Shown piece after piece: positions 3,111-64,000 of a stretch of DNA of 64,000 nucleotides (position 1 is the stretch's first letter; the number at the start of each line of letters is the position of its first letter). The notes below the pieces were generated by a model, which saw only the letters and a list, made by a program, of their open reading frames with translations, ran no database searches and had not been told where the DNA came from. This DNA comes from Bryum argenteum (lineage: Eukaryota; Streptophyta; Bryopsida; Bryales; Bryaceae). The stretch is taken from positions 20,705,001 through 20,769,000 of the forward strand of contig CM073321.1 of assembly GCA_037043015.1 (NCBI GenBank), written 5' to 3'. Made by a program: the position numbers and the translations under genes.

Positions 3111-4574
3111 GGATAGTTTGGAAACAAGTTATGAAGTTCAAAATAGGAGCCACCAAAGAGGCGGCTCACCCTAGCCCTAACTAAGGCTCAAGCCCTAACT
3201 ATGCCTCTATCGATGAATGGTGCTCCTCCACGGCGTTCTATCTTGAAGAGCTTTTACAAATGAATGTAACCCACAACTACCACCACGAAGTTAAATGAAC
3301 AAAACCAAGACAATCAAGTCATAAAAACAAACATGAATATTAAAAACTAATTGCGCAAGGCCCATGGTAAAACACTCAATCCTAAATTAAGCAACTAACC
3401 ATATTCTTAATTCGAGGATTCACTAAGGGGGATCTTCCCTCCTCTAGTTTTTCTCCATCATCAATTGGATCTACTAGAGAGGATCTTCCCTCCTCTAGTC
3501 CTTCCATACTAAATCTAACCTAAAGCTTAAATTAGTATCAAACGTCCTATCTAAGGCCTTGCAACAACCATCTTCTAACATGCATATTGTATTCACAACT
3601 TAATTAAATTAAATTTCATCAAATTACGTCATAAAGGCATTGCTTGTTAACATTACATTCACAAAGGTAAAAAATAAACAATAACGAAACAAGAGAGCTA
3701 CTACGAGTTTCCACAGGTGGTGTTTCGGACCAATTACGAGGAGTTTACACTACTCTAACGCAAAGCCACAAATGATGGTACCGCTTATTTATGTTCATAT
3801 TTGATTTGGCAATTACTAACACTTTGATAATTTATAGATGGAAGAGCAAGGTGTTATTTCAAGAATCTCTCTCTAATTTGGAAAATGTCACAGAATTAGT
3901 CCATTCTCTCATTAAAAAGTGGACACTCGAGCGCAAAAGTTTCTTTCTATACTTCTAATTAGGGCATTCACTCTTTCGAAAAGTTACCAAAATTGCGCCA
4001 TCAATGTCGTCAATTCAAGGACAAAAATTGGCGCACAAACTACGTTTGTTGAGATTGTGGCGACAGTTAAAAGCACTTAGAGTGCCATAAAAAAAACCGA
4101 CGTTGGTACAAAACTCCTATGTTATTTCAAATCAAATGAACAAAGTAAATTATCTATGTTGTTACAAATCGTCATTGTCTAGGTCAATAAAGTAAAAACA
4201 TTGTTATACAACAATTTTAGGATTCCAACTGAGAACTTGGAGGTCCTAAGTGAGGACTATTGAGTTTTAGACTATTTGGATTTAAATTATTGTGTATGTC
4301 GACGTTGCAGTATTTTTCTCACGTATTTTGCTTATACACTTAAAGTGTGGAACAGTGCAAGGAAGTATGATTTGGGCTCCAATGACTCTAGGAGCTTCGA
4401 ATCTAGAGCTTCAGGAATATTTGCTTCTACTATTGATGTACATGGGGATGATCCAGTGAGTATGGTTTGGTTCCAAGGAGTTGAGAGACCACAGAGACCG
4501 GAGACTAACGGAGCTTTGCTAGCTCCAAGGACTCGAAGTCCGGTTCGTACGTAGAGCAGGCAAACAAGCTACCA

Positions 4575-39948: not shown

Positions 39949-40339
39949 GCTCTAGCACTATACTTTGCCTACGTCCAAACCTTCATTGTTGCAAAGAGTC
40001 ACCTCTTTTAAGATCCATTTGGAACGAGGAATGCCAAATCTATTTTCAAAGTAATGAAATACCCAAATTTAAATTTGAGGGATGATTGAGATAATCTTAG
40101 AATTTCTTGCGACATGTTGACAAATCAACCACCGATGTATGTGACATTGTACTCTTGTAAGTATTGTAAAAGAGGTGAAGATGAGCGTTGCAAGGAAACA
40201 CTAATTGTCAACCCGACAATACCTCAGAGAACGAGGTGAATTATATGTTCTCAACGGGGATGTCACGGCGTCCGGACGTCCGCTGGGAGTGCAGAGACTG
40301 TCTGTGACTTAGAGATTTTAGACTTTTTACTAAGGGTAA

Positions 40340-40572
40340 ATGGCCGTCGGTGTATGTTTATTAGCCGGTCTACGCCAGCGACCAGCCCTTGAGGTGGCCG
40401 TCGGCCCGGCCGCCCGGGCCGGCCGTCGACCAGGGCGACCACCTCCGAGGTGGCGGTCGGCTTGGGCGACCGGCCTCCGGTCTGGCCCTCGGCCCAGGCA
40501 CCCGGCCTCCGATAAGGCCCTCGGTCCACGCAGCCGGCCGTCGGCCTAGGCGACCGCTTTCTGGCCGGATGA
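40340..40572. repeat. GC-rich tandem island, left (GGCCGTCGGCC type)
   Basis: Imperfect units of about 30-32 bases, such as GGTCTGGCCCTCGGCCCAGG then CACCCGGCCTCC, repeat about six times. The segment is extremely GC-rich against its flanks. Open frames on both strands here come from the base composition. It sits just upstream of a TATA box and the hAT gene. Confidence 0.75.
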
Positions 40573-40919: not shown

Positions 40920-43310
40920 CTTCATACAATACACCTTATGTCACGTAAAAGTTTCCAAGAAGAAGAGTCGGAATTTGAGTCATTACAAGTATGAGAGGAT
41001 TCTTAGACATCGAGATCCGAGTTCTGCCCTGTGCCCAAAGCTGCCTACGCAAATTAGGCAGCTATTTTAAAAATGTGGCAAGGAGTTCCCTCCATAGAAC
41101 GGAGAACTGGACGGATTTCTTGGTGAATGTTCCCTCACTCCATCCGCAGACGTTTCGGGTGCCTCAAAACATGGCATTCCAGAAACTAACTAGAGTGACT
41201 CTTCTGTAGGGTCCTCTTAAGGCACCCTCATAATTTCAGCAAATCCTGTGGTTGGAGCAACCTCCGCTTCTTCCATCTTCATAAGAGGAATTAAGGATAA
41301 TCGCCCGATGATTGGATCTATGAAGCAAACCAAACAATCATCAATTGAAGCTACTTTTGCAGAAGTGGATAAGCGAGAGTTGGATAAACTTTGGGCGAAA
41401 TTTTTCTACGAAGCAAATATACTATATTCAGTAGCCCAAAATGATGCGTTCAAAGCACTAGTACTGAAGACTGCTCGATTTTGAAAATCCTATGCTCCAC
41501 CATCTTATCGGACAAGGTTGTTGGGAGATGTAAAGACCGAGTTACAAATAAAACTAGATAGTAGACATCGAAGAATGGTTAAGTTTATGAAGAGACGACG
41601 AATGCCCCTAGCTGTGTATCGTAAACACGAGGCAAAATTCAGCCTACTGATGCCTGGGAAAACATGATTTGCTAGCCAATTCTTAATGATAGATCGCCTC
41701 TTGGAGGTCAAGACATCATTGGAGCAAGTTGTTGTTGATCCTATGTTCATAGCCTATACCTCAAAGAAGACGGTATCAACAAGAGATAAGCTTATATTCT
41801 CCCGTAAGGTCAAAAAGGTGGTGTTGAGCGATGATTTTTGGGAGCAATGCGGAAGATTACGGGCAAGGCTTGGCATATCATTCGTGATCTTGGAAAGCAA
41901 GTCCATATTTTGCATGCACCGCCATTCTCTTTGGAACCACATCTGGTGGCCACCGCAAAAGAAAAGTTTTACCATCGGAAACGCTTCATGACAACTGATC
42001 TGCTTGGTGCAGCACTTCTGAATCCTTATGTACTACGTGACGAAGAGTTAGCTAGCGATCCTAATCTTACAATAGCTTATAAGCGTGATTTACAAAACTA
42101 TGTTTCGGAGGATTATTCAGACGTGGTGAATGAATTTCTTGTGTTCCGAGTAAGGGGTCCACCATTCCATGACATGGTGAAGCCTAAGACTTAAAAAATA
42201 GCTCCACATGCATGGTGGAAGTTTGAGGGTGCTTGTGCTAAACTCCTCTCTCCAACTGCAAAGCGAATACTAGCACGGTCTGTGTCCTCGTCGGCTTGCA
42301 AACGCAATTGGAGTAGCTACTCTTATGTTCACGACAAGAAACGGAATCGGTTACTACCGGGGAGAGCTGATGACTTGGTCTACATATTTTCCAACTCGAA
42401 ATTGCTTGCGAATAATAAGTTGAGTGACGATGGGCGCTGGTATAGAGAGAACTTGGATTTAGAGGAAGACCAGGTACATGAAAACGATGAGGAAGCTGTC
42501 GAGCACGATTCAGAGTTTGATGACAATGATATTTTTGAATTTGGTGATGAAGACGATAATATGACTTTCTTCCCTGCTTCAAATGATGAAGATGCTCTAA
42601 ATGTTCATAATGCTAAGGGTGATTTTATCGCTGATGGTGTTTCGGCAAATGATTTAGAGGATCAACAGCCGTTAGCACGGTTAATGACACAAGGCGACAC
42701 GGACAAATCCAATAACATCCCACGTGCTATCGCTAATGGTTTAGGGTTGGAAAAGGAGGCGATAGACGTGAAAACCACCGCGTGCAATACTAGTGCCGGA
42801 AGTATGAGCTCTGATCCGGCCTTCGAGAATATCGCATCATGTAGTAAGGATCAACTATCTTTACCATGTGCTACTCCCCGCGCTTTATTTCAACCCTCTT
42901 CTGTAGGGGTTACGACAACCTTGGAGAAACCCTCAATGGGTTTGGTATCCCTTTCAAGAGCCAAATATGGCATCATCTCTAGTGACTCTGATGTACCTTT
43001 GGGCAGGTATTTAAAAAATGCCAAAGTTCCTCGTACTGCCATGGGGTTACAACACATGCTTGGCACTTTTAAGTCGCATAAACGTAAATCTGCAACGGTT
43101 CCAATTATTCTGCCGAAAAAACCAAAGATCCCTGTTAATCCTCAAGAATTTGGTACTTGGCATAAATATGGGAATACACAATGTTTAGAGAACAAGCCCA
43201 AGATCAAACAAGAGGTTCTGAGCGATTATGAATATGATCCTATGGGGTGTGATGGAGCTAAAGAGAAGGGAGACAGCGAATATGAACAATCCTTTGATGC
43301 TGATGAGTAG
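40920..43310 (+). pseudogene. hAT-family transposase with C-terminal dimerisation domain, mildly broken
   Basis: Blocks in order: a possible BED-like N-terminus (about 40930-41080, weak); KRELDKLWAKFFYEANILYS (near 41370) followed by a DUF659-like region; LGKQVHILHAPPFSLEPHLV (near 41900); LLGAALLNPYVLRD (near 42010); HAWWKFEGACAKLLSPTAKR and VSSSACKRNWSSYSYVHDKK (42209-42345), which is the hAT dimerisation domain; and then DDLVYIFSNSKLL. Downstream is an unusual acidic tail of roughly 300 residues up to 43310, with DEEAVEHDSEFDDND. A few stops and shifts separate the blocks (near 41483, 41670, 41840 and 42194). The catalytic core is too broken to check all acids. It faces the RING gene tail to tail, with about 390 bases between. 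Confidence 0.75.
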
Positions 43311-46318: not shown

Positions 46319-46547
46319 ATGAAGAATGGGGATTATTTAAAATACTCCAAAGATCTCCAAAGTATGCAAAAATTTGATTTAGCAACCGCAAGTATCGTGT
46401 AGAACGCCCACTTCTCCTCGCCAATACAAATGCAACAAATGAGAAGCTAATGCCCACAATTGCAGCCCATTTGAGGTGGATGGATTCGAGAAGAAGTGAT
46501 GGAAAATGAGGGCCAAGGGCCATTTATCCATCAAAAATCCCAACCCT

Positions 46548-46712
46548 AATGATCGGCCGCATGAACCGGTCGGTTGGCCAATCACGACCGCGACCGATGC
46601 TGGCCGGCCGGTCCAGTCGACTAATCCTGGGCGGTTGATTCAGACGACTGATCCTGGCCGGTTGATCCGGACGACCGATGACGACTGATTGATCTGGCTG
46701 GCCGGTCTTTAT
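46548..46712. repeat. GC-rich repeat island, right (GGCCGGTY type)
   Basis: GGCCGGTTGAT, GGCCGGCCGGTCC and GCTGGCCGGTC recur with CGACTGATCCTGGCC spacers, about five times. It lies upstream of the RING gene start, mirroring the island ahead of the hAT gene. The two share the GGCCGGTC/GACCGGCC word but are otherwise diverged. Confidence 0.6.
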
Positions 46713-47224
46713 TTTTTAATTTTTTTTCCAGATGTTTTAATGAAACCTGACAAAATTTCATTGGAAAGCTTTTGATTCCTCAAAGATTTCTTTATTAGAT
46801 TCTGAATGATTATTACACAATGAATAAAAGAACCCTTTGTTGATTTCTCAAATGCTATATCTTCTTTATTCACAGATACATCTTTACTTTAATTTTTGGA
46901 ATCGAAACCATTTCCAGTCTACTCTATAAAGTACAAATCTTCACAAATTCAAAGATGTTTCATACATAAGGCAAACATTTGAGTCCAAACGGTTTCATTC
47001 TACTCTATTCTCCTTTTGTAAATTATTTGGCAATTTTCATCATTCCAAGGCGATGATCTCAACCAATAATTTTCATTGAACGTACTTTTTGGTACAAGGG
47101 TAATATTGAGATAAATTTGAATAACTTTGTAGTTGGAAATTTTATCATTGCATTAGCTTTGTTATAAGAATTTTCACTTTAATCTGAAAATGATGAAATT
47201 TTGTAAATTCTCTTGTGTACTAAT

Positions 47225-47325
47225 ACATTATGATCTCGTAATCTATGAGGCTTTGTAACTCAAACTTTGGGCCACATGACCTACAACTGTAACTCTATTA
47301 CAAGATTTTATGATTGGAATGTAAA
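47225..47325 (+). repeat. Dispersed repeat, copy 2
   Basis: This is the cleanest match among the three copies: ATGATCTCGTAATCTATGAG, then GGCCACATGACCTACAA, then TACAAGATTTTATG. Confidence 0.55.
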
Positions 47326-47420
47326 TTGCGTATCCTCATTTTGATATGGATGCGTTATTTAACTAAATATGGACAATCCACAATCCATATTTAACTAGCA
47401 CCAAAAGTGGCATGAATTGT

Positions 47421-48425
47421 TGGATCCCCCGATGCAATGGTAGTGAGTAAGCTTGAGGCATTGAGCTCATTAATTTAGGAAGTAATTTGGTGAGGAATTG
47501 GTTTGCTCAATAATAAGAAGAAAAATCTAGGGATAGATCAAGATATCCATCGATCTGTAATTGTGGTTTGAGGAGTGTATTACAATAGTTGAGAGTCATA
47601 ATTAGGAAGTAGACTAAAAAAATGTGGACTTGTCTTTTAAACATAGGAAAGTGGGAAAAAAAAAGTTACGTGATTATCAAGACGAAAGAGTAACAAACCA
47701 AATCCTCAGTAGGGGTGGGCTGTAAGAGCTATAAGTGAAATATCAAAAAGTTACACAACTACGAGTATCCATTTTGCGTCACAAGAAACACTGATCTTTG
47801 GCAAAAAATTAAACGCATAATAAAAGAAAAAAATGGCAACAAGAAAAGGACAAGAAAAAATGCCCATTACACCTGTTACACATGGCTCAGTGCCCCGATA
47901 CAAATAAGGAAATTGGCATCATTTTCTATTCACAAAATGCGGAAAAACAAAAGCAGGGGCTCAAACACAGCCATAATACATCAAATGCAAGAGTGGGGTA
48001 CAAAGAACATGACATCTTCTAGGCGAAAGATAACCAATACAAAAGACAAACATATACAAAGTTGTGGTACATCACATTGGGCGATCGCCCCATGGCAAGC
48101 GTTATTTTCATATTTTATTTTTGGAGCCATCGAATCGCTTTCAGCAAGTCGCGTCATTTGACAGAAAGCAAATGCAGTCACAGAAGCAAACGTAGTCTGT
48201 AGTTGACATGGGGGGTCCACCGATGCACTATAGTATAATAGATTTAGGAATATTTAATAAAGTCATAGAAACCAAACAGAAAGTGCACATTACGTATGCG
48301 TGGATCCCCTATGTATAAGTGAGACTTCAGAGCATGAATTTATTGTCATGCAGTGTACTAAAATACGGTGGATTCACCTGAATAAGTTATACAAATCGAT
48401 AGAGTGGGCCTCTGCATATGAGTAT
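47421..48425. repeat. Left group of CATCGGGCGATCGCCCATG-type palindromes
   Basis: Copies lie at 47421-47440, 48075-48094 (CATTGGGCGATCGCCCCATG, near-perfect), 48207-48228, 48294-48314, and weaker ones at 48364-48381 and 48396-48420. The four from 48207 are about 30-90 bases apart. Other single copies are at 50720-50745, 52521-52546 and 54207-54227. Confidence 0.6.
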
Positions 48426-48515
48426 TACTCAAACCAATATCCATGAAACACTTTGCGCATTGGACAAATAACAAAGTTTGATGGCTACTTATAGGCTATC
48501 TATACAAACGGAAAT

Positions 48516-48931
48516 AAAATTCATTACACTGATCGCTGTAACTCTTCATGGAGAGATATGAGCTCTTCAAAGCTCATTTCTGCAAATAGCTTGTGAAGGT
48601 AAACACTTCAATAGAAAGCAGCTTGAGGACCACACTGCAACTTCTTGAAGTCATTCCATATCGTCCGCACCTGGAAGAGGACTTATTGAGCTGGGGAAAC
48701 CCAATATTGAACCTGCGATATTGCTGCATAATAAATGGCTAACTTCACAGCAAAATACTTCACACAAGTGTGAAGGTACGTCCTGAAAAGTGAGCATGTC
48801 CTAGCAAGGTCGACGATGAGTTGCAAGGACTCAAAGTCTAGGTGGAACTTAAACTCCGGATTCTACAGACAGTCTATATAGATAGACTGGAAAATGAAAT
48901 CTGCAAATGTAGCGACGAAGGTCGGATCCAT
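48516..48931 (-). pseudogene. Eroded exon-like reading, family unknown
   Basis: After an acceptor-like GTTTGTAG there is a minus-strand reading of about 138 codons with only three in-frame stops (one each of TAG, TAA and TGA). It is leucine- and aromatic-rich: DPTFVATFADFIFQSIYIDC, LARTCSLFRTYLHTCVKYF, MSFEELISLHEELQRSV. So few stops in AT-rich DNA suggest a former coding exon. I cannot name it. Confidence 0.35.
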
Positions 48932-50380
48932 CTACAAACACCCAAACAAATCAATTAGAGAAGTTGACAGCCATCAATCGGATCTTAAGATAGCAAGAGT
49001 GCGTCTGCAAGCAATACAAAAAATAGAATTTGAAAACTAGAAAACAAGAGTAGAAGTAAGAAGATCACCTGAAATACTAAACATTCACCCTGGTTTGCAA
49101 GAGTGGAAAATGACGAAGACATGCTATGAGAATAAGGTAGTCTAGCAAGTTGCAATCTCTTCGGTGCAAGTTTGGTCATCTCCTCTCAAAAAAATGAACA
49201 ACAGAACTAGAAAGTACATTGCCTCCAAATAGTAGAATTCTAGACGGACTCAAGAGGAGTGAGGAAAATCACAATGAAGGATATCCTAAATAGCAGCATG
49301 CATTTGAGGAAGAGAAGCTCCAAATATACTCAAAGGTCAAATCCAACATGAGGCAGTATGAGGACCACTTTAGGTTCCAAGATGGCGGCTGGCGGCACGC
49401 GTAATCATGAGAGCCATAATGAGGACTGAAGTACTTAAGGAGAAGACTGCTCATGATGAGTATTCACGTAATTCAAGGGGACAATGTCTAAACAATGGAT
49501 TATTAGGCGCAACCATTGTTAGTTAGCCTTTAAATAATGCAATTCCATATTGTAAGAAGTGATTGGTGGACACCTCGAAGGACAATACTAGAGAAGTCCT
49601 TGAAGAGAGGAATACGTATTAAATAAAGCACTACCAATATATTAGAGACAGAAAGCGACACCAACTTAGCTAATCATCATTTGCAATCATAAATAGGATA
49701 TACACAAATCCGGCCCCAGATCATATCATTCGTATGATATGAACAGTTGACGCCCCCAAAGACTATGACAAATATGTAGAGTAAAACAAAAAGAAGTAGT
49801 TGAAACTTACGCCGCCCGATAAAATCGACAGGCATGAATGAATGAAGCCTAAAATACTGACGGATAGCCTAGTGGGTATAGAAATTAAAGCAAACAAGCA
49901 AAGAAAAGTAAACTAATTACCTTGTCCCTAGTAGAACTGGGAAAGAAAAAGACACGGTTACTAAGTAGGCTCCTATCAGTGAAAGAGGTAAGGGTGAGAA
50001 CTACCGCGAGACAATATGTGAAGAAGCAGGGTGACCTCTCAATCAATTTGACAATGTACAACATGTTGTACGTAACATTGTAATTTAGCTAGACTCTCAT
50101 ATGAATACGTTATGAAAATGAGCTTCATACAGACAAGACTCATCTATTGAATTATAATAAAAAGTATAATCTTTATAAAGTTGATTACGGAAAACAAGTC
50201 CAAAAAATGATGTTCAAGATAGATTGATATGTCAATATTGGATTCAGTATTCATACTTATGACAATCTAACTCGGAATTAAAATATAGTTGAACCTCGTC
50301 AGCTGATCAGAAGAATTACGTCATATTGCGGATGTAGACAAAGGCAATGAAGTAAAAAGAAGTATATCTGTCATCGAGAG

Positions 50381-50720
50381 CAAGGTTGTCATATCGGGCG
50401 TGTTGAGGTAATGGGGCGAGCAAAACGGGCGTACGAGTTGTCCCAGACGGACGGGCGTGCCCGCCCACCTTGATTGTAGGGGGTGTGTAATTTTTTGTGG
50501 GTAACAAACTGTGCAGTAAAAAGCATGTGTGGCGTTCCACGCGGCCCGTACGCGGCGGCCAAGTGGTTTAGTTTTCACCTGAACCCTTGCCACATCGTTG
50601 TTTTCTTACATAAACTAAAAGTCAACAGCCGTTTGACCCTATTGGGCAAGCCACAACTCAGTCGGCCGGATAAGGCGGACGGACGGGCGGGCGGTGTGCC
50701 CGCCCGGTATGACAACCTTG
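50381..50720. mobile_element. hAT-type MITE, copy 1 (340 bp)
   Basis: The ends are CAAGGTTGTCATATCGGGCG and its near-complement CGCCCGGTATGACAACCTTG. Flanking octamers ATCGAGAG and ATCGGGGG agree at six of eight positions, as in an old 8-bp hAT target duplication. The interior is GC-rich at both ends (GGACGGACGGGCG) with no coding frame. It is about 85-90% alike, by eye, to the copy at 53414-53754 and in the same orientation. Confidence 0.85.
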
Positions 50721-50775
50721 ATCGGGGGATCGCCCAATGATGCACTTCACTCAGCCCCACAAAGATATGTCTTCA

Positions 50776-53700
50776 TTACGGGTCAGCAATGTTGGCTCTT
50801 GTTAAGTTGTCTAAGGCACGAGTTTTATCTTTCTTGGGATTAGTACAAGACTTCGAATTACTAATCTTAGAGAATGACGCGTACAACATAGCGCCAAAGT
50901 TGATCCACTCAAGACGACGGTCCTCCACGACCCACTTAGCAGACCAACAATTCTCGTACTTCTTTGCCATGTCTCGTGCTGCGTTTTGGGGCTCCCAATA
51001 CTGGATAAGGAACTTTGCGTACTGAGCAACACCCTCCTCCCTACAAACAGGAGACACTGTCGGACCTAGCCACAAAGGGCATATTGCTGGATTTTCAGGC
51101 CTCAAGAGCACCCACCAAAGAGGAGCGATCTGGCGCCAGGGGTTAAATCTTTCTTCACGCCTCTCATTAGCAGGCCCACAATATGCCTCAATCTCTTCGT
51201 CCTCTGGAAGAACGTCCTGTGGTAGCAAAGTCGGGCGTAGGACGGAGAACAAGGACCCTCACCAATTGTGAAGCGGCCAGAAGCCCTCAACTAAGCGAGA
51301 CGGTGTGTGAAGTGATGGTGGTTTGTTATGCGGTTGCCATTGGGAATTCACCCCTGACTTCTTCCATCTCATTACCGGCCAGCCGTCCGAGTCAACATAG
51401 AATTTGAAAAGATGCATCTCCCCAAGTCCAATAAATCGATTTGCTCCATCGCATTGGTAACTCTTGACATAAGACTTGAATTCTGCAACTTCTTGTACAA
51501 ACTCCGGCATGAACGACAATTCTTGAGACTGCATGAAAGCTTTCATAAGATCTGCAAGTACGAAGGTATTCCTGCTTTTGAGTGCCTCGGCGAGATGGCT
51601 AAAGTACGCATCAATATGTTCATGAGTATGTCCGACTAATAGAAACCCAGCCTAGATTTCCTCGAATACTCCCTTGGCCAAAAGCACTCAGAGAAATGAC
51701 ATCAAGTACTTGTTTTTGTTGTCCTTCGCAAAATTGTCTAACTCAAGATACAGGTTTCTTAGGCAGTGGAGACGCGCCAGTAAATTTGTTCGGATCCAAG
51801 ACCGTTAGGGCATCGATGCACCTGGATTTTCCGCGTAACAATGCTTCAAAGAGAGAATTAGCTGGTGGATGAGGAAAGAGTGCCCTCGATTCTCGAAGTG
51901 GGGACTCTAGAAGCTGCCTAAATAGCTTTGCAAGAGAGGAAATTGTGGCATTGGGATCGGAGGGCCAGCAGTCCGGTGAGTAATACGCATAGGCGCCGTC
52001 ACTGTTGCGATGAGCAACCATTCCCGTCACGTTCATTGGGAGTTGGCCCAAGCCGGAGGTTGCCTTTGTTGTAGTCCTCATCCATGGAAAAGCTGTCTAC
52101 GCGGTACCCATTTTGTCATGAATAACACATAGATATTCTTGAGGATTCCGCTTTGACTCTTCACGCCAAGTTGCATATAGCCACCGACAAGATTCCTGAT
52201 GATGCAAATGAGAAAGTTTATGCTTCAAGTATGAAACATACTTAGGACTGCCATTAGGACTCCTTAAAATAAGTTGCTGAAGGGTGTCGCACTCGGTACA
52301 TTTTGCAAAACTACTACCAACAGGTTTGATAGCAACGTTATTGAACATGCCCGTCTTAATTCGGCTAATTACAGACTAACTGAACAGCGGCAGGCCGTAG
52401 GAATGGTGCGTCTGCAGAAGAATTCAAAGAAATCAGGTTAGATGAAAATCGACTCATTTACAATTACAAGCAAAATTGACATATTACTACAAATATCTAG
52501 ATCCAAGAAGCCTCGCTCAAGCATGGGGCAGTCGCCCCATCCCGACCTTACAAACATCTCAATTTAAAGGTAGAAATTTACCTCATTAACATTGGCGTGA
52601 ACTTTCGTCCAATTGTTAAGGGCCGGAAGATACTTCAATAAGTCGATTTGGTGGGGTTTTCCAATTTTGCGCATTCGGTTCGACATCTGATCAGCGTTCT
52701 CAAACACAATTGCTTCAATTGTGGCCATAGGTTGAACCGTCCCGATCTGGGGACGCTTCATGCCTTTATTTCCATGCTGACCAAAAAAAACACCTTCCTT
52801 GAAGTTTTGAATGTATCCATGGAATGTTGATTTGGCGATACTATGAATTTTAAACCACGGCCTAGTGCACACCTCAAGTCCCATTAGCGTTATGAACTTC
52901 ACTATGATCCACTGTTTTCAGTGCATTTGTCCACCGGCCGCGTTGCAGTACTCACACCGGTCCTGATACTCTTTTAGATAGAACAACTGTCTAATAGAGC
53001 GAGTATGAGACCAAGGAAATCGTTGGCAACACAGTAAATCGCAACACTACTCCGCGCTAACTTGTCGAATCTCGCTGTCTCCCATCATTTTGGTGTACAA
53101 GGAAATGACAGGACTTTCACGGCGCTTCCTGCAGACAAATTGATAGGGAGGTTTCTGAATCCCCCCCCCATATATGCGTCAGGGTCGACGACTTCGGGCA
53201 CGGACGCGAAGTGTTGAAGTGTGTTAGTCAGGGATCAACCACGAAAAAGCATTATGAAAGGAGCCACTTCTGTTGCGTCATAATGGACATGATATCACCG
53301 GTCATCACCTGAAGAACAGTGACCCCAACAGAGTCCTCACCAAGAATACCATCCTGGTAGGGGTCACTGGAATCGCAACAATTGATTCTACTCGAAGCTA
53401 TAACAACCCCGTCCAAGGTTGTCATATGGGGTGTGTTGAGGTAATCGGGCGGGCAAAACGGGCGTACAAGTTGTCCCGGACGGACGGGCGTGCCCGCCCA
53501 CCTTGATTGTAGGAGGTGTGTAATTTTTTGTGGATAACAAACTTTGCAGTAAAATACGTGTGTGGCGATCCACGCGGCCCGTACTCGGCGGCTAAGTGGC
53601 TTAGATTTCACCTAAACCCTTGCCACGTCGTTGTTTTTTCTACTTAAACTAAAAGTCAAGAGCCGTTTGACCCTATCGGGCGAGCCACAACTCAATCGGA

Positions 53701-54827
53701 CGGACAAGGCGGACGGAGGGGCGGGCGGCGTGCCCGCCCGGTATGACAACCTTGACCTCGTCATCACCGTTCCTCATTACCTCGTGTCCCGCCGACTGGG
53801 ATCTTGCAATATAAGAGGAGTCCACACCCTCATCAGCATCATCAACGTGGGAGTCTTCCGGTGGAATCATCAAGTCCAGGACCTTCCAAAGCACAGTCTT
53901 ATCAACAGATTGGCCGAGGACACTAACACCTACCTAGCGTGGATGAAGGGGGCAAGGATGAAAATAGTGGAATGATCTTGGATGGCCGTAGCAATACAAA
54001 GTCATTGCTGTCGTCTAGCAAATGAATACCCCGCCAGTCGCCAACAGGATGTGCTTCAGGAATAAAACTTGACCCCACCTCTCCAATTCTAGGATAAAGA
54101 AGAGTGACATCCATCCCATTCTGATAAACAATGTCGTGTGAACTGCTTCCACTAACCCAATCAGAATTTGAGAAGCTACCCGATGCCATTATGTAGAGCA
54201 AACGTGTATCGGGCGCTCGCCCGATGCGGCTCAGTAGGGGTCAGGTATCAACGCTGGAATGTCACGGTCGAAGTATCCGCACTAATCTTGTTTTCTTATG
54301 GTGCACGCTTGAAGTAAGTCGGAATGCCATGTTGATTCAAGGTCCTAATCGGTAAGACAACTACCCGAGCTCTAACGAGACTAATATAAGGGACAATGTC
54401 TAGTGCCATCACGAATTGATAAAGCCTATCCGGTACAAGCCCACGGTACACCATCTTCCCCGGTTCTGCAAGGTGTAACTTTGAGATATGTACCAGGAGG
54501 TTAATTCCTAGACGTCTCTGAAATGCTCAAGTCTCCCCCCCCCCCAAGTGCCTGACGATGTATGTACAGGGGGCAGAATTCCTTGTGGTAGAGCGCCTTG
54601 ATTTCTTCTCTTCTTTCAAGTGTCAGGATCTTCTTATCCTTATCTGTATACATCACGGCCTCTTCAATCGTCAACTCCTTCTTAGAGTCCGCATTTGTCT
54701 TGACAGATACGGGCTTCCTTGTGTCCATTTTCAGCTTCACTAGGGACTTTCTTTTCTTGGTAGGCGTCGCAGCATTAGGGGAAGGGTTATCACCAACAAC
54801 TACAAATTCGTGTTGGGCCTCAAGCAT
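50776..54827 (-). pseudogene. DUF7869-type transposase-like gene, copy 2, lightly broken
   Basis: Minus-strand order: a basic N-terminal part (54827-54501, TPTKKRKSLVKLK then LERREEIKALYHKEFCPLY); a helix block (FKIHSIAKSTFHGYIQNFK) with ENADQMSNRMRK (52902-52564); KCTECDTLQQLIL and YLCVIHDKMGTA (52348-52097); NATISSLAKLFRQLLESPL (52081-51743); YLELDNFAKDNKNKYLMSFL (about 51745-51690); VGHTHEHIDAYFSHLAEAL (about 51640-51580); and a C-terminal part with EMHLFKFYVDSDGWPVMRW (51546-51259) and more to 50776. Spaced acids (IHDKMG, LELDN, HTHEHIDAYF) suit a DDE-like nuclease. At least two stops lie between LDN and GHTH. MITE copy 2 sits within this span. Exon-like pieces at 55134-55355 and 56234-56376 may be its 5' end. 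Confidence 0.65.
53414..53754. mobile_element. hAT-type MITE, copy 2 (341 bp), inside the DUF7869 gene
   Basis: It has the same ends as copy 1 (CAAGGTTGTCATAT... and ...TATGACAACCTTG). The flanking octamers ACCCCGTC and ACCTCGTC differ at one position, a near-perfect 8-bp target duplication. It lies between the N-terminal and middle blocks of the DUF7869-type gene, probably in an intron. Confidence 0.87.
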
Positions 54828-55133
54828 AAGTGCCCACGATATGTTGAGGGATGCATGAGTTACTTTAGGATCCTTGTCAATATCTAATCCCCTCCTTTTT
54901 CAAGTAAGCGAAAGTGTGACATATAACTTCCGGACATCGAGGCACACTCAATATAATCGGTCTTTCGGATATCGTGAGAGTGGATCTTTGTGTATGATTA
55001 AATAAACGTATGGCCATGTGTTCTTCAATGCATCTAAGTGCAGTACCTCCATGCCGGTGCTCAAAGTTTGAGACATTGCATTAGCATTGATAATTACTGG
55101 TAATATTTTCGCCCTGACATTTCCAACCTGCTT

Positions 55134-55355
55134 TCAGACAAACCCCAAGCCTCCAATTGACGGCTTTACACTATATATTGCTAGGACGGGACTGTTATCA
55201 GGCATGTTCAGGACAAAGGCACAAAGCCAGAACTTGACATAGCAAGCGGTCCTGATCAGATGCATGTGCTCCAGCGCTTCTTGAAAAGTAGGATGTCTGT
55301 ACGAAACAGACCAGAGAATTAGGAACAATTGTGGGACAAGGTTAGTCACACCCAT
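55134..55355 (-). pseudogene. Exon-like reading upstream of DUF7869 copy 2
   Basis: A minus-strand reading with protein-like make-up contains HPTFQEALEHMHLIRTACYV and FVLNMPDNSPVLAIYSVKP, preceded by TACAG. It may be part of the same gene as 50776-54827 or of a neighbour. The family is not recognised. Confidence 0.35.
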
Positions 55356-55442
55356 TACATCAATGATTGTATGAAGGGCTCATTGCCGATATATGATTGA
55401 TTCAAATCCTCTATTGATCGGTAGACATGAACATGATTGTTA

Positions 55443-56170
55443 TGCATGTGGCGATCAACCGATGTTGACGACCGCTGAACCTTACACCTATGATCGGGGG
55501 CGACTCATTGGGTCCAATGAGGTTTAGACATTAAAGTCCAAGTTCCAATCGATTTTACTATTTCATTGGTCGACCGCCCCATGAACAGTGCAAACACGAT
55601 CACAACAAAACATCAATAGGTTATTTAGTAGCATTGGTGGTCTTGCATCGGACAATCAACTGATGTATGAGACTGTTGTTCAAAAATGCTTCATGATTAT
55701 AGAGTCGACAAACTTGTGAATAATTACCTGCTTGCGAGACCAAGTTCTTACTCAATGATCCATTACATCGGTCGACCACCCTATGTTCGGTGTGAACTCA
55801 ATTAACAATACAGCATAAACTGATAATACAGATAGACTGGTTGTCTTGCATCGGGCGATCAACCTATGTATACAACTGGTTAACATTACTTTCATGTTTA
55901 ATGAGTGTTCCACAGATAACGTATTCTAGACTAGCACATCCAAGTTCCAATACAGTTGTTCAAGTACATCGGTCGACCGCCCCATACACAGTCCGAAATG
56001 ATCCCAACATCAACGAGTACAATTACGTTCTAATCGTCGTCCTGCATCGGGCGATCGACCCATATCCAGAAATCACTGCTCAGCGATTGAGCGTAATATA
56101 GACAGTAGTTCGTACGGATAGTTGAATCGCTTGAAAACACAGGAAAACACTGCATCGGTTGATCCCCCAC
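55443..56170. repeat. Right array of palindromic motifs, tandem units of about 200 bp
   Basis: Nine motif copies start at 55443, 55489, 55563, 55643, 55764, 55847, 55965, 56043 and 56151. Two types alternate: type A, CATCGGTCGACCGCCCCAT (55563, 55764 and 55965, exactly 201 bases apart), and type B, TGCATCGGGCGATCGACCCA (55643, 55847 and 56043, 204 and 196 apart). The sequence between also repeats (CATCCAAGTTCCAAT), so this is a degenerate tandem array of about 200-bp units with two palindromic boxes each. Confidence 0.8.
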
Positions 56171-56233
56171 TGAACTCCAGAATCTTAATGACATTCATTC
56201 TCACATAGACACAAGAGCACGTATTGAACTTAC

Positions 56234-56376
56234 TCCATATTGGGACGATCCGTACAATCGCTCTCCGCTTCTTTGCCGAGTAATTCCTTGATTTGCTTCT
56301 CGAACAGCTTCTGAATTTTGTCAGGACCACAGCGCCGAATCCGGGCAATGCTCTTTGTACACGCCAGAGCTTTAAC
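56234..56376 (-). pseudogene. Exon-like reading flanking the palindrome array
   Basis: A minus-strand open piece lies between an acceptor (AATTTAG) and a strong donor (GTAAGTTC). Its 47 codons include ALACTKSIARIRRCGPDKIQ and FEKQIKELLGKEAESDC. It looks like a real exon. The palindrome array would lie in the following intron. It could be the first coding part of the DUF7869-type gene or belong to a separate gene; the family is not recognised. Confidence 0.4.
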
Positions 56377-56379
56377 CTA

Positions 56380-58684
56380 AATTAGAGGCCGAACTGTCTT
56401 CAAAATCTGCATTCGAACTACAACACCGACTTCATCACTTACTCAAACATGTTTCAAAGTGAGTTTGAAAACGCGAGATTTAGGGTTCATCTTTTAAAGA
56501 TCAGAGTTCATCAATCAATCAAGGAAACAACGTAAACAAATGAGGAGGCACAATGTTGCACCTCTCAAACTGTGAAACACAACCAGAAGCAAATAACATA
56601 CTTTTAAAACAACAAATCCGAAGACAATGAAGCGGTTTGTTTGGATGGAATACAACCAAATGCAGCCACAGAGCAAATTGTTAAAGGCATTTCGAAGAAT
56701 AACCTAAAACACTACTCAATTCTGGAATTGTTAAGCAAAACTCTGAATATTCAATAGTAATGCAAGCATAAAAGTAAGTCAGGCATCGGAGAGAACCAAA
56801 CAGAGAGAATCTAACCAATGATGAAACACAAAGTGAAACAAGAGAAAATTCCTAAACACAATGAATACAATCTAAGTGAACTGAAAGCAATCCGCAAAGG
56901 ATTGCAAAGTACAAACCTCCGATGCGCAGCAGCTTCACAGCTTCGTTCTGCGACGCTCTTCACCTGCGATCAGCATGCAAGCAGTGATTCAACAACTCAC
57001 AAACAGTCAAGCGGTTGCACGCGGAGGAAATAGTATTCAAAAGCACAAAACATAAAATAAGTTGCGCAATCACCGCTCACAGAAGCAAGCACGGGAAATG
57101 AGTGAGTGACGTCAGGTCGCTGTCATGCCGCCAAATCCACTCATCACGCTGCCAACTTCACTCATCATGACCCTCCACAATCATATTCTTATTGTCATCT
57201 TTCACTTCATTGTCGCCAATATTTTCCAATTCCATGCAGGCATGTGGACGCCCTCGCTTCAACCCTTTTGCTAATATTTATACAAAATACAAGTATTGCC
57301 TTCTTGTAGCTCATTCAATAAAATACGTATCTATTTGGAATATATATCTAAATGAAATACTTGTTATTTGCACTCGGTAATAAAAATAAAATTTATAATC
57401 AATTGACATACATATTTTTTTGATTTTCGTATAAATTCATTTTCAATACATTATTTTTATGATATTCATGTGAAAGACCACGTATTGGACATACGTATTT
57501 ATATTAAAATAATTATTATCCATAAATTGCACTAAAAAACTTAGTACAAATGGAGTATATCAACTATGTAAATAACTAAATACTGAAATAAAATCAAAAT
57601 TTACTTGTTAAAGCTATTAATACTAGATTTTCAGAGCCTTCTAATTTATAGGTTCATATGTTGTTGTGAATAAAAAGTTGCAATGATTACCTTCACCTCC
57701 AAACGCCATTTGCAATATTTTGCCAAAACTCTAAACCCTAAACCCTATGCCATAATTCATGTAAATAATATACAAACCAAGTAATACTAATGACGGAATT
57801 ATGATTAGTTTATACATAGATATGACCAGATTATCATCTCAAATAGTTCTGTAAGTATGCACATCTGATATATTGGAATTTATATTCCTAGTAATCCACT
57901 TCCCCTGCTAGTTGTTGCTTACAAAGACTCCTCGACCCCCGATACTTCCCAAGCAGACAGTCGAGTACACCCGGAGAGTGCACAGATAGACTCTCGCGCG
58001 GCCCTAACGCTCTATTCCGACCCAGCCTTGGGCTAAGGTCAAAAGTCGTCCACGCTGTCCCGGCCAGTTAAAGACAGAGTCCCTCTTCTTCTTCCACACG
58101 CTGACTCCCCTGAATCCTTACCAAGGTCGACTTGAGTCACCTCGTAAAGCACTATTCTGAGAAGTCCAGCAAACACCCACATGGTTTGCTCTTGTTGTGG
58201 GAGGTTGGAGAGCTTTGCTGGGACCAACTTTGTTCTAATCAGACTTCTATCCTTCTTAGTCTTTCGGATAGCCTTTGGTCCCCCATTTGTTTGATTTCTA
58301 CTGTGTGTTGTAAATCAATTAACGTGGGTGACTGACTTTTGTTCACATATTTTTAATTTGTACTGGTGTTGACTGTCTAAATAGACATGAAACTTAAAAT
58401 TCTTAAACGATACTCAGTAGAAGCGTAGCTTGCTACACTTTTGCGGTCATTGCGGGTTATAACTTCCTAGAATTAACCCAGGGCCAAAATAATTTCTGTC
58501 TAAGAACGACAATTCAGTTGAATAATGAATTTGTTGTGTTTGGAATGGTGATGTGTTCTTTTAATTCCCTGCCTAATAAAGAATATGGCATTCTTGGCGG
58601 AAATTGTATCTTCATTCTCCAAAGTCGATATGATTATCATGGGGATTTTTTTTTCTTTTAGGGAGTATATGGCACAACGGCCAA
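56380..58684. other. AT-rich stretch, no gene recognised
   Basis: There is a short telomere-like run CTAAACCCTAAACCCTA at 57731-57747, too short for an interstitial telomere and more like a promoter telo-box. A GC-richer patch at about 57900-58250 has no open frame or RNA fold that I recognise. Confidence 0.5.
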
Positions 58685-59160
58685 ATTATCACCGAGCCGG
58701 AGATAATTCATACTATTTGAGTTCACAAGTACGGCTAAGCCTGAGATTTATCCCCGGCTCGTGGATAATTTGTCTCCGTCCTATGAGAAAATATGGCGGA
58801 ATGACATAATTATCCTTGGCCCGAGGATAATCCCTATAAAAGAAGGTGATAAGTACGGCTAGGCTCAAGATTTATCCACCGTTTAGAAATAATCAGTTGT
58901 CGTCGTATGATAAATCATGGCCCAATGACAGATCTTACCCCAAGCCGGGGACAATTGTTACTTTTAGGGGTGACATTTTGGGATATGTTCAAGAATTATT
59001 CCCGTGCCATGGATAATATGTTGTCGTTGTATGATAGATTATGGCACAATTACAAAGTTATCTCTGATCCGAGTATAATTCTTTCAAACGGAGGACACAA
59101 ATACAACTATGCTCAACATTTATCTCTGACTTGAGGATAATATTGCGAGCCGGAGATAAA
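58685..59160. repeat. Array of hairpins ATTATCCCCGGCTCGGGGATAATT every 62 bp
   Basis: Imperfect palindromes of the form TTATCC..GGATAA start at 58685, 58747, 58808, 58871, 58933, 58994, 59057 and 59119, with a last half at 59142. The intervals are 61-63 bases throughout. The spacers alternate between TATGGCACAACG.C-like and TACGGCTAGGCTCAAG-like, so the higher-order unit is about 124 bases. No coding frame is plausible. Confidence 0.88.
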
Positions 59161-62100
59161 ATTTCATGCATTGATAGGGAAGAAATCATGTGATACAAAA
59201 CTTGAAATCTACATGGGGACGTAGGTTTTAGCATACAATAGCAATTTCAATCTCATCAGATTAGTTATGCAATCCAAGGAAAGCAAGTAGAACTAGGAGC
59301 TCACAAGAGAGAAATGCTAAGTAAAAGCTTGATGTGCTTTAGCAAAATAAAACCTAGGTTGATGATGAGTACAGTTAAAAACTTGACTTGCAATGCCTCT
59401 GAAGCAAAAACCTGAGACAGTAAAAGCAAATCAAACTGATTCAACTAGAACCCTAGTACCAGTTTGCAGCATGAATTGCTTCAAACTGAAAGACGCAATG
59501 TCTACAGCTCTAGCAATTTCAATGTTTTGAAATGAGATAATTAATCAGAGTACCAAACCTGATTTGAAGTTTGATAGCAGGATTGCTCCTATTTGAAGCT
59601 GCTTTTGTGTTCTCGTCGCTGCTCCTCATACCTCGAACAACAAACTTTACAAAAACTACTTTCACTCTAACGACGAAGACTCACAATGAAGCTCGAGGTC
59701 GCAGTTCTCTCAACACTCGAAACAAACAAGAAAGCACAAATTCGAGATTGCAACTTAAAACTTGAACAACAGAGGTCAAAAACTACTGAAAGCTTGTCGC
59801 AAAAGAAGCGTGCGGCAACATGAGCAATTGCAAGCTCTCTTTCTAACTCCGACTCTCAAGCGCCTTGCATGCACTTACTCACAACTCTGAAAACTTCAAC
59901 CCAACGACGACAAAGCTACAAGAACGACAGAGAGGGCAACAAAGAACAAGCACAATGAGAAACAAGAAGCCCGATTGAAGCGTGAAGGTGCACAAAAAAA
60001 TTTGAAGCTAGAGAGCACAATGAGCGGAGCTGCGCAGTAACATGATCAGAAAGAGAGGAAGAATGACATCAAAGGAGGGTCATCATGACCCCTTCCCCAT
60101 CATTACGATCATGGCTATGCCCATGATCATATGCATGGTCATGGACATGTACGTGACTATGCACATGATTATAGGAATGGCAAACTCATATTCAAAATTT
60201 GAGTTAGCATAATCATCATTTTTTTGTCCAAACTTTCTTTGGTTGAAGTTGTCCACGTACTCCAATTTAAGTCTTCAAAGTTTAGATTGTATTTTATTTA
60301 TTAATCTTAGCAAGTTCGTGTTCAAAGTTTAGTACTCTAAGTCTAACGTTCTAAGTTAAGTTTTTAGTCTTCTTCTAAGTATTCCACGTACTTAGTTTAC
60401 TGCAAAGAATAGTACTCCAAGTATGGATTCTCGCTTTAATATATAGTGTTGTTCACATATGAATATTAAGTTTAGTATTCTAAGCTTGATTCATAATTTG
60501 GATTATATTCTTTAACTAATTTTTCTTATACATGTGTTTTCAAATTTAGCCCTCATTGTCCATCTTTTGTACTTATATTAGTATCACCTCTAGGTTTAAC
60601 TCTTGTAATAATTTGTAAATGTTGCAGCCTATTTGTATCCAAGTAACACATTATCGTTAGCATTGTTATAATAAAATTGTAGATGAACAAACTTGAATTG
60701 CAATCGTAGATTTTGACACTTAATAGACTTATTGTACGTGGTTTACATCCAAACCCTAGTCTAAACTCTTAAATGCCCGAGAGGGAATTAGAGCCGAGGA
60801 ACAAATTTTTTTGCAAAGTGTCACTGTAGAAGTATATGTAGAAGAGCTGTCTATATTTCAACCATACAATCTTGTAGAAACCTTGTACAAGGTCATGTGT
60901 ATCGAATTTGGAGTCATGACGCCTAATACATTACGAGATCGTGACATATAGGTACTCAAAAGAATATAACAGGATTCCATCATTCCCACTTTGAAATACA
61001 AATTAAGGCTATCAACAAAGCTATTGGAATCTTCAAACATAAATTCATCAACTATGTAGTTTTTTATTCTCTTCTCAACAACAGTGTTGTACAATAAGAT
61101 TCATTTTATAAAATTCTTTGCTAAAATAGTACACCTGCAATGCAAGGAAGAGCCACAAATCTACATACAAAAAATACTCCATATCTTCACCCATTGGATT
61201 CAAATTTTTGGTTGACATTAAAAACACCTTTGATTGGGTCAAGGTTTCTACACCTTAAACTAGACTCTATTTGAAATCTATTCATTTGAATAGCACCCTT
61301 ATGTAGACCTTAACCCTAGAACCAATTCTTGATTGTGAATAATTAACTTGCAATGGTATAAATGGTTTGTTGTTTCAGAACTCTTAATCACAAGATGCAC
61401 TCTCCAAAATGCATGCAAACGTTTCCATACTTTATTTTATAGGTCTCTATGAATGTATCTCAAACCAGTTCGGTTTTTGAAACCCAACCCAGTGCTCTTG
61501 TCTAAAATAGCCTGTTGTCCAAAATGGACCCTCGCTGAAGAAGGTACGATTTGTCAAATGTTTGCTTTGTCAATCAAAATGTTGTGTCACAACATCTCTT
61601 AGGTTTAAAAGGAAAAGGTGTCTAGTTTGCGAGAGCATAATAAGCGTATTAGTTCTAAATACAATATTTAAAATTAGTACTCTTTCTCTTTGGAATTGAA
61701 ATTGTACCAACAATACTATTACAGTATAAACCTATGAGTCTATAAACTTCTTTACCCTACCAAAAAAACCACTATTTCTACACATATCATTTTTTCTAAA
61801 AGATTAGTATAAAATATTGCTATTGGACTAGAGGAAAGTTTGAAAACATAAGGAATGAAATAGGGTTCAATAAAAGCTTAATTTGCAGTCAAATTCAGGC
61901 CTTATCTTATAAACATCTATAATTAAATTAAATTCGTATGAATTTAACTTGTATACTAGTATTTATAGATATACATATAGTTAAAATACATTAGTTTGTA
62001 GTTAATCGACGTGATAATGATATTAGTTTAGTTATTATTCTTCTTTTTGTACTTTAGTTGAAAAAAGGTAATATATATATATAAACAATATAATAGAAAA

Positions 62101-64000
62101 TGTATTTGTGAATTTCTATTCTCTATAAGCGAATCAAAGAGCTCGTAGCCCCTTCAAAGCGGAAATTTATCAAAAAGTATTAATCCTTAAACGTCAGGCT
62201 ATACGGATTTGGGCAACCCAGTATTGGATCACATCATCTTTTGGACTCGGGCATCATGAATAGTGCACTTTTTAAACTTGGGCATCATGAATGATCCAAT
62301 CAATGATGAGCTTGCAACCTCCTACAAGTATTGTACAACTCCAACCTACCTACCACAATCCTTTCAAAGCACAAAATCACTCATACAAATTGTGATATGA
62401 ATTCTAAAATTTAACTTTTTGAATGCATCAGAAGAAGGTGACCGAAATATAAGTGAAAAGTTGAGTACATTGACAGCTACAGAGAAGATTCTGTTGGAAA
62501 AGGACCCCTTAGGTCACCTTAGACGTTTAAGGGTTAGATAAAAGTGGCGAAAAAGCTAACGGACCTCCAACTACTCCTCCTGCACATCGCAGCGTCCGAT
62601 CGAGAAGAAGGCAAACAACATCACCGCCTCCCTCCCTTTTGCATCGCCGCCTCCCTTCCTTACGCTTCGCAGCATTCGATAGAGACGAAGGCAAAGAACA
62701 TCACCGCTGCAACCGATTGGCAATCAATGGAGAAGAAGCCAGACAACACAAGTTTCAACAGAAGTTTCATACTCTTTATGACGCAACGACAGAAAATGGT
62801 TTCAACACAAGTTTCATATACTTGACGATGCAATGACAGAAAATGCATAAATACAGTATGTGCTGAATACTTTCTTGCTTGGCCATAATGCTCTTGTTCA
62901 TCCTCATGCCTATGCTTTGGTAATGGATAAGGTTTTGTGATGGTGCACTTCAGTTGAGAGGTTTAAAATTCAATTGGTTAGTTGATTTAGTGCAGAATTG
63001 TTTGGTCAGGATGGGGTGTTTAGATAGTAAACTGAAAACAGTAATAGGGTAAACCAATCATGTATGCTATGAAAAAACCTTTTTCCTGCTTAATAAGGAC
63101 AAAAATTCTGAGGTACTGATGAAGACCAAGGAAAACCACTAGGAAACAGGACGTAAGTGGTTATACTTCAAAATCTATTACCATTAAAGCTGCGTTTACA
63201 CTACAAACGCGAAGCACAGTGTATGTTGCTGACTGGTTCCAACACGTTGGCACGTTCCCGCGCTGTTACGTGTGAGCGCTCCCTACGTAAGCTCATGGAC
63301 GTCATTCTTACATGGAGCACAGTCACTGTCCGTTGCCACTTACCACTCACTGTAATGAACACGTTTCCGAATGTAACAGCAATGATGAATGCTGAGCAGA
63401 ACGGGCCAAGAATTCCGATGTCTGTTAACAGAATATATTCAGAATGAATACATATAAGAATGGCGGGAGTATGGTATTATGCTCACGTCTTGCAGTAGGT
63501 GATGAGACTTGCTGCGTATAAGTCCCGAAGTGCTTTTACATGCTTAGCGTGATTGTCACTCTACGTGACTGCCTTTCGGTGGAAGTCTGAGGACATGAGC
63601 ATCCTTCGTTGAGCAGAGACATACCAAACTAATTTCAGTTTGCGCCATGAACTCCGAAGCCATCTCACAGGTATTGTCTCATGTATTTTGGAAATGTGAC
63701 GTTAGTTTGTACACAAGGTAAAGCCCTGAGTGACTTCGCTTCACACTCTGATGTGTAAGTCTAGAGAGGCGTGACTATGAGGAAAGCATATTTTCACAAG
63801 GTGTTTCAGTTTTGGAATTCACCATAATATATGGCAAATGATTGACCCCATGGATCCTGATATATTCCAAGGAATAAAACGACGATCAGGGAGTAAGAAG
63901 TACAAGTGTTTGGAATGACAATACAAGATTTGTTAAATGCATTGTTCATAAGTTTCGTGTGCTTGTCAAGGATATGTTCTAATTTGTGGCTCTGATAACA
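59161..64000. other. No recognisable gene
   Basis: Contents seen: a CATG/ATG-rich low-complexity piece at 60083-60190; the third dispersed-repeat copy at about 60890-60965 on the minus strand; an 80-base duplication (CGCAGC..TCGAT at 62588 and 62668); and a CpG-rich open frame at 63157-63447 with no known motif. The rest is AT-rich without pattern. Confidence 0.45.
60890..60965 (-). repeat. Dispersed repeat, copy 3
   Basis: The reverse strand carries CACGATCTCGTAATGTATTA followed by ACTCCAAATTCG, ACACATGACCT and CTACAAGATTGTATGG. It is collinear with the copies at 29755 and 47225. Confidence 0.45.

Follow-up and report, generated by a model that had tools for sequence, protein, structure and literature searches.

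In the window, the 64,000-nucleotide stretch of the moss Bryum argenteum analyzed here (C1:20705001-20769000; C1 is contig CM073321.1 of assembly GCA_037043015.1), a broken gene with the DUF7869 domain lies beside the remnant of a second gene, hereafter the B-gene, among copies of a palindrome with a GATC core. The DUF7869 gene is a pseudogene with stops and frameshifts on the minus strand (50776..54188), and its DUF7869 core lies at about 51259-52096. Two minus-strand open reading frame (ORF) pieces of this gene matched the Pfam family PF25273 (E 7e-15 and 3e-5), in agreement with a preliminary description of this DNA, which had noticed a DUF7869-like gene. By tblastn, the gene showed 72-87% identity to the proteins of locus L043. 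The B-gene remnant (54272..55307, minus strand) adjoins the DUF7869 gene and showed 35-41% identity to the L042 protein by tblastn and about 48-63% to locus L114 by tblastx.

Palindrome sites were located by consensus match and weight matrix downstream of the DUF7869 gene (50720..50739), between two of its coding blocks in a probable intron, where the protein alignment was also used (52522..52541), at its 5' end (54207..54226), and, as an array of eight, upstream of the B-gene remnant (55445..56172). The palindrome CATTGGGCGATCGCCCCATG at 48075..48094 was found by both of these and by a 12-mer search. The weight matrix, built from the sites of related loci, gave 15 sites in 47350-56400 and one elsewhere in the window, where about 1.7 per 64 kb are expected from shuffles. 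With a threshold of at least 14 of 20 consensus matches, 13 palindromes were in the element region of the window and two elsewhere. The array is real, and the preliminary count of about eighteen palindromes was slightly high.

End A of the element in the window

These features lie in the end A (left) portion of a giant DNA transposon with terminal inverted repeats, annotated here as 47350..64000. Genome-wide searches, which covered the 259-Mb genome, gave an A-end match at C1:20752350 with 88% identity, and pieces of the window between 47350 and 54271 matched loci L043, L044, L048, L050, and L052 with about 76-88% identity, interrupted by two copies of a short element resembling miniature inverted-repeat transposable elements (MITEs). 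The terminal inverted repeat of end A, ATGCGTTATTTAACTAAATATGGAC (47350..47374, plus strand), matched the terminal pattern of the family, and the window and five relatives converge at 47350. To its left, the host repeat that carries the insertion (46386..47349, plus strand) matched L044 9894-8932 with 79.5% identity, ending exactly at the terminus. In the alignment, an uninterrupted copy of this repeat near L044 runs on past the point matching 47350, which confirms end A of the window copy. The match to this empty-site copy (L044 8932-9894) stops directly after TATGG, where the element begins, and the tetranucleotide ATGG (47346..47349, plus strand) is the putative left target site, as judged from this one copy.

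No second terminus was recognised within the window, and the sequence at 56.2-56.4 kb showed no recognisable end. The rest of the host repeat past the element copy was not found in the window, and none was found just beyond it among the best 40 of 445 genome-wide candidates. Accordingly, the window copy either continues beyond 64000 or no longer has its other end. The preliminary description had proposed one element of about 9 kb bounded by two palindrome clusters. This proposal had to be given up, considering that the TSD-confirmed relatives described below (with target-site duplications) measure 17.5-147 kb and that no relative has an end at the position of the right cluster (55.4-56.2 kb).

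At 54271..54272 there is a breakpoint, where the alignments to L043, L044, and L050 end and an inverted internal segment starts. Since the B-gene remnant is reversed relative to 24 other ends of the A2 family, to which the window copy belongs, an internal inversion with its breakpoint at 54271 is suggested. The transposase gene of the window copy is interrupted by the two MITE-like elements, which are unrelated insertions with short inverted repeats. The first (50378..50723) has 23-nt arms (CAAGGTTGTCATA), and the second copy (53432..53755) was recognised by sequence inspection and alignment. Judging from its sequence, the window copy is dead and decayed: it has stops, frameshifts, two short insertions, and a probable internal inversion, and a second end was not found in the window.

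Termini, target-site duplications, and empty sites of the family

When the loci around exact palindromes were compared, the palindrome-bearing loci fell into families with long shared similarity and sharp ends. The relatives have terminal inverted repeats of about 25 bp at both ends (ATGC..ATTTAACTAAATATGG), with a common element start of ATGC and then ...ATTTAACTAAATATGGAC. With two mismatches allowed, the terminal pattern had 175 matches in the genome and none for the reversed control. A terminal variant, GCATCATTTAACTAAATATGGAC, is frequent among the pattern matches and probably represents another family with the same inverted repeats. The bases after the start vary (GCAGT, GCGTT, GCATT), and the A2 ends read ATG|CACTATT. 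End-sequence searches gave 31 A2 ends (from 32 matches, one fragment being dropped and the window copy being included at 88%), 23 A1/A3 ends (from 27 matches, without four short matches to A2 ends), 23 full B1 ends (from 34 matches, without 11 short ones), and 31 B2 ends.

We paired the nearest ends in opposite orientation and compared 27 of the 37 candidate pairs. Identical 4 bp just outside ATGC were present on both sides in 21 of the 27 pairs, versus five of 702 mispairings of the same flanks (0.7%). A duplication of 2 bp (AT), which was our initial reading, was dropped once these 4-bp duplications emerged. The 21 elements confirmed by target-site duplications (TSDs) are 17,535 to 146,819 bp long, with a median of 30,490 bp, and eight of them are 21.4-23.3 kb long; the largest may contain nested insertions, and their interiors are mostly unread. 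The aligned copies gave exact ends together with 4-bp target duplications, and the ends of the other copies did not lie well inside the palindrome arrays. This family has inserted as single elements of 17.5 to 147 kb, making 4-bp target duplications.

In the empty-site test, the flanks of 25 insertions were joined minus one duplication and compared with the window and the sampled loci, or, for an 86.6-kb element, with the two MITE copies of the window only. Across the junction, the joined flanks of the 86.6-kb element matched the first MITE copy without a gap (261/287) and the second with one gap, which makes this MITE family the target of the insertion. Those of a 31.8-kb element aligned over window 2923-3162 (83%), and those of a 21.9-kb element over L043 565-750 (85%). 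Two further joined flanks gave weak matches (75%) over window 46883-47043, together with a matching L044 stretch, and over window 61984-61870, and a sixth match over L046 5764-5891 (87.5%) came from a 28.7-kb pair that has no perfect duplication. Four matches to the insertion's own flank locus were excluded from the count, and the misses mean little because the comparison set was limited to the window and the sampled loci.

These results bear on the explanation that the paired ends belong to two neighbouring small elements and that the giant spans are artefacts of pairing. Two of the first seven pairs, one B1 with an A2 end and one A1-B1, had unlike flanks, as this explanation would predict. 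However, perfect duplications are far more frequent in the pairs than in the mispairings, and empty sites join both flanks of the 86.6, 31.8, and 21.9 kb elements, which refutes the explanation for the TSD-confirmed copies. We consider it extremely improbable. The target duplications and empty sites show that insertions of single inverted-repeat elements as long as about 147 kb have occurred in the genome of a land plant. One LEAFY (LFY) locus was found in this genome, as befits a land plant.

The termini also bear on whether the family consists of giant CACTA (EnSpm) elements. Arrays of short subterminal sites are typical of CACTA elements, and their transposase is Transposase_21. The moss elements share such arrays and have a CACTA string near some ends, several termini reading GCACTA and the A2 ends continuing with CACTATT, and giant EnSpm elements are reported from algae in the available part of PMC12477816. 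However, the moss elements start with ATGC followed by variable bases, their duplication is 4 bp and lies outside ATGC, and their transposase is of another family, with no match to a CACTA transposase family in the pieces scanned. The assignment to CACTA was discarded after the ends of several families had been aligned, and it is very improbable.

The DUF7869 protein

The DUF7869 gene sits near end A and reads outward, and in five giant elements 2.7-9.1 kb separate its DUF7869 part from this end. Alignment with DUF7869 proteins of the same genome revealed conserved acids in VDGMD (canonical DUF7869) or IHDKMD (the giant-element family), in QxDN, and in GHTHEDID. The window copy has DKMG for DKMD and EHID for EDID, and the latter change is also found in L047. 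Because the protein of the family itself gave a poor model, we modelled instead a canonical DUF7869 core of the same genome that is 27% identical to the family. This model (predicted local distance difference test (pLDDT) 74.6, predicted template modelling score (pTM) 0.78) has strands and helices in an RNase H-like order, and the best 50 of its 543 PDB matches (E up to 10) include Argonaute/PIWI proteins, the SETMAR transposase, simian immunodeficiency virus (SIV) integrases, terminase nucleases, and a CRISPR-associated transposon (CAST) complex, which are RNase H-like as far as could be judged. On this 27%-identical relative, the model shows a predicted RNase H-like fold of the DUF7869 domain, with the conserved acids at the usual DDE/D places. 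The third catalytic acid is ambiguous among the conserved D, D, and HEDID acids in the alignment and the model. The look of a DDE nuclease, to which the preliminary description had pointed, is in keeping with the conserved acids and with the RNase H-fold model of a related core, whose PDB matches are weak.

We infer that the DUF7869 protein is the transposase, and so propose how a Pfam domain of hitherto unknown function may work. No relative was confirmed among the viral contigs scanned with alignment patterns of the transposase and the B-gene, or among the bacterial and archaeal contigs scanned with the transposase pattern.

A second DUF7869 gene lies at 37741-40032 of the window (minus strand). 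It is broken and more diverged, with about 30% identity to the first. The weight matrix gave no palindrome near this gene, and one 12-mer with two mismatches is present at 40464. The canonical DUF7869 genes (L005-L034), which belong to other transposons, include several open frames of about 1000 amino acids and have at least 151 matches in the genome.

The B-gene and other cargo

Genome-wide, 95 stretches match the B-gene, and several of these are fragments of one and the same gene. The B-gene reads outward toward end B, from which it is 7-9 kb away in three of the five giant elements above, 9-11 kb in a fourth, and 18-20 kb in the fifth. In an A2-type copy, the stretch C5:10217928-10219280 belongs to an open frame of 933 aa for a long B-protein. 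Within 120 kb inward of the 31 A2 ends, the B-gene points away from end A at 24 ends and toward end A at one, which is that of the window copy, and six ends have none; this count used 67 of the 95 stretches, mostly omitting extra pieces of the same loci. The two conserved genes read outward to opposite ends: DUF7869 faces end A, to which it lies close, and the B-gene faces end B.

Two readings of the B-gene found no support in the searches. A ParB-like motif, IIGGQHTVAAHQKV, was spotted by eye in the B-protein and had no profile match, and a ParB reading was unsupported by profile searches or tblastn. For the second ORF of the B-gene, a methyltransferase reading was likewise unsupported: the comparison with YhdJ by hhalign gave a probability of 0.1% with a very-low-diversity profile and no Pfam match was found.

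Between the B-gene and end B, an FCP1/NIF-like phosphatase ORF was observed in two element families, in the few loci that reach there (L046:13-702, minus strand; L072:1458-2120, plus strand; L073:5808-6191, minus strand). The match to this phosphatase family had E 2.5e-17 in L046 and 5.9e-14 in L072, with 60% identity between the two, and this ORF is possibly an old cargo gene. One giant element locus also contains arrays of a 32-bp satellite, TTTACCTAGTAACTCGTATTAATCATGCAGTA (L047:199-1693).

The palindrome sites and their possible role

The palindrome has the consensus ATSGGGSGATCSCCCSAT with a nearly invariant GATC core, based on 214 sites at 21 loci. The window has one exact copy of the 12-mer GGGCGATCGCCC and the whole genome 243, versus one for the reversed control. 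Fifty of the 243 exact palindromes were listed, and all 50 lie inside giant elements. Of these, 46 fall in 11 paired-end intervals that make up 2.4% of the stretch concerned, and the other four are at most 8 kb inside a single known end. When the motif and the gene were searched for genome-wide, motif arrays unlinked to DUF7869 elements did not appear among the sites listed. A site with at least 13 of 20 consensus matches is located 65 bp inside end A in the three A2 relatives examined and in the window (47415..47434, by weight matrix), and another is located 61 bp inside end B in all five B1 ends examined; among the end families, this check covered A2 and B1 rather than A1 or B2. A derivative of only 194 bp carries the inverted repeats of both ends and, between them, a weak site (14/20); one of the 4 bp differs between its flanks.

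Since the palindromes lie just inside the termini, a role in transposition can be argued, and since they also lie at gene starts and in the intron, a role in regulation or compaction can be argued as well. We consider the palindromes to be putative binding sites of the DUF7869 protein or the B-protein. Bound by one of these proteins, the terminal palindromes could help to assemble the synaptic complex, and the internal arrays could regulate the genes of the element or condense its long DNA so that distant ends meet. The giant elements are tied to a defined palindrome, so that binding by either of the two proteins is directly testable.

On the one hand, the palindromes may serve the B-protein rather than the transposase, in a partition- or methylation-like marking or gathering of the element DNA. 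They flank both genes, their GATC core hardly varies, and none with 14 of 20 consensus matches was found in 30 canonical DUF7869 loci, which spanned 3.5 kb each and were the top-ranking 30 of at least 151 matches. Moreover, the giant element Sola1-1_Ec32 of Ectocarpus encodes a protein with ParB-like and methyltransferase domains, according to the available part of PMC12477816. On the other hand, the ParB likeness of the B-protein is a by-eye motif for which profile searches were empty, and subterminal sites are equally expected for a transposase. We consider service to the B-protein a real possibility, though rather unlikely. It is a little more doubtful that the transposon carries its own partition- or methylation-like system, in which the B-protein would bind the GATC palindrome arrays and either gather ends 20 to 150 kb apart or mark the element DNA. 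If this were true, a cut-and-paste transposase would be able to move far larger pieces than usual.

Classification of the element

The Sola superfamily has a DDD transposase and 4-bp duplications, its elements are mostly 2-9 kb and some are longer than 15 kb, and it is present in Physcomitrella, as far as the available text of PMC10741241 describes it. In the available part of PMC12477816, Sola1-1_Ec32 is a 21.5-kb Sola1 family with a gene on the opposite strand for a 1104-aa protein, which carries the ParB-like and DNA methyltransferase domains, and similar accessory proteins are described for transposons of green and red algae. The moss family resembles Sola in its 4-bp target duplications and in the inverted repeats at both ends. 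The conserved D, D, and HEDID acids, together with the RNase H-like order in the relative's model and its weak PDB matches, point to a DDD-type transposase as well. As far as that description of Sola1-1_Ec32 goes, the moss family resembles it in size, with its eight copies at 21.4-23.3 kb, and in having the transposase and an accessory gene on opposite strands, the B-gene of the window copy itself being inverted. By the same description, several moss copies are far larger, up to 147 kb, and the B-protein differs in having no detectable ParB or methyltransferase match. The phosphatase ORF and the GATC palindrome arrays are additions of the moss family, unmentioned for Sola1-1_Ec32 in the available part of that source. 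We filed the family under Sola because the duplications, the acids, the core size (about 22 kb), and the gene layout fit. Membership is probable rather than proven, and the ParB and methyltransferase domains were undetected. Accordingly, the family is probably a giant, unusually elaborate branch of Sola, judged by described features.

Alternatively, DUF7869 may define a new superfamily that acquired its 4-bp duplications and large size by convergence, so that the likeness to Sola would be superficial. The transposase pieces scanned matched DUF7869 and no other Pfam transposase family above the cut-off, the DUF7869 protein had no sequence match to solved transposase structures, and our literature search, in which one close precedent surfaced (PMC12477816, available in part), found no paper that names DUF7869. 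However, the 4-bp duplications, the DDD-type acids, the core of about 22 kb, and the oppositely placed, outward-reading accessory gene all match Sola or Sola1, and we consider a new superfamily unlikely. This applies equally to the undescribed superfamily considered in the preliminary description.

KDZ elements make duplications of 8 bp, and Starship and Polinton are giant elements with cargo. KDZ was rejected here, as the duplications are 4 bp and no KDZ transposase was matched in the pieces scanned. The moss family resembles Starship and Polinton in size and cargo but differs in its DDE/D-type transposase, inverted repeats, and 4-bp duplications, in place of a tyrosine recombinase or the polymerase gene of such elements, the interiors of the largest copies being mostly unread. 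The giant KDZ and EnSpm elements of algae, which are longer than 10 kb and of which many have accessory genes and nested insertions (PMC12477816, in its available part), resemble the moss family as large DNA transposons with these properties. They differ from it in termini and duplication length, and no Pfam match to their transposases was found in the pieces scanned.

Considering these results together, the window likely contains the decayed remains of one copy of a large DNA transposon of the cut-and-paste type, which belongs to a giant branch of the Sola superfamily and uses a DUF7869 transposase. Several points weigh against this explanation. Six of the 27 tested pairs have no perfect 4-bp duplication: one joins a B1 and an A2 end, one contains a truncated end misplaced by the boundary rule, two are off by one base and one by two, and the A1-B1 pair has unlike flanks in spite of the right kind and orientation of ends. 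The eight ends that have a subterminal site at a fixed distance (five B1 and three A2) are close copies and not independent. The model of the giant family's own transposase was poor (pLDDT 43.9), and the fold matches of the canonical core were weak: only two had E ≤0.001, both of them Argonaute/PIWI, SETMAR had E 0.005, and the integrases and the CAST complex had match probabilities of 0.38-0.72, with TM-scores to the query of about 0.2-0.3. Sequence searches gave no significant match beyond DUF7869 itself. The ParB and methyltransferase domains of Sola1-1_Ec32 were undetected in the B-protein by profile, Pfam, hhalign, and tblastn searches, and the likeness to Sola rests on published features, not on a comparison of transposase sequences. 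Nevertheless, the reading first proposed for this DNA, in which a DNA transposon carries subterminal palindromes and a DUF7869 transposase, is well supported by the inverted repeats, the 4-bp duplications, the empty sites, the fold model, and the location of all 50 listed sites in elements.

Distribution in the genome and a neighbouring element

The contig C1, the largest contig listed, makes up 17% of the genome and holds 24 of the 31 A2 ends, 25 of the 31 B2 ends, and 12 of the 23 B1 ends. It also holds 38 of the 40 best matches of the host repeat that adjoins the window element. C1 may represent a sex chromosome or some other chromosome with low recombination. The concentration on C1 recalls the giant elements on the sex chromosomes of Ectocarpus, where the authors link giant elements to long haploid phases, according to the available part of PMC12477816. 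This parallel with a brown alga, together with the concentration on C1, raises the question of whether such elements accumulate on sex chromosomes.

Elsewhere in the window, a remnant of a hAT transposon is located at 42195-43310 on the plus strand, with a match to the hAT dimerisation domain (PF05699, E 4e-9).

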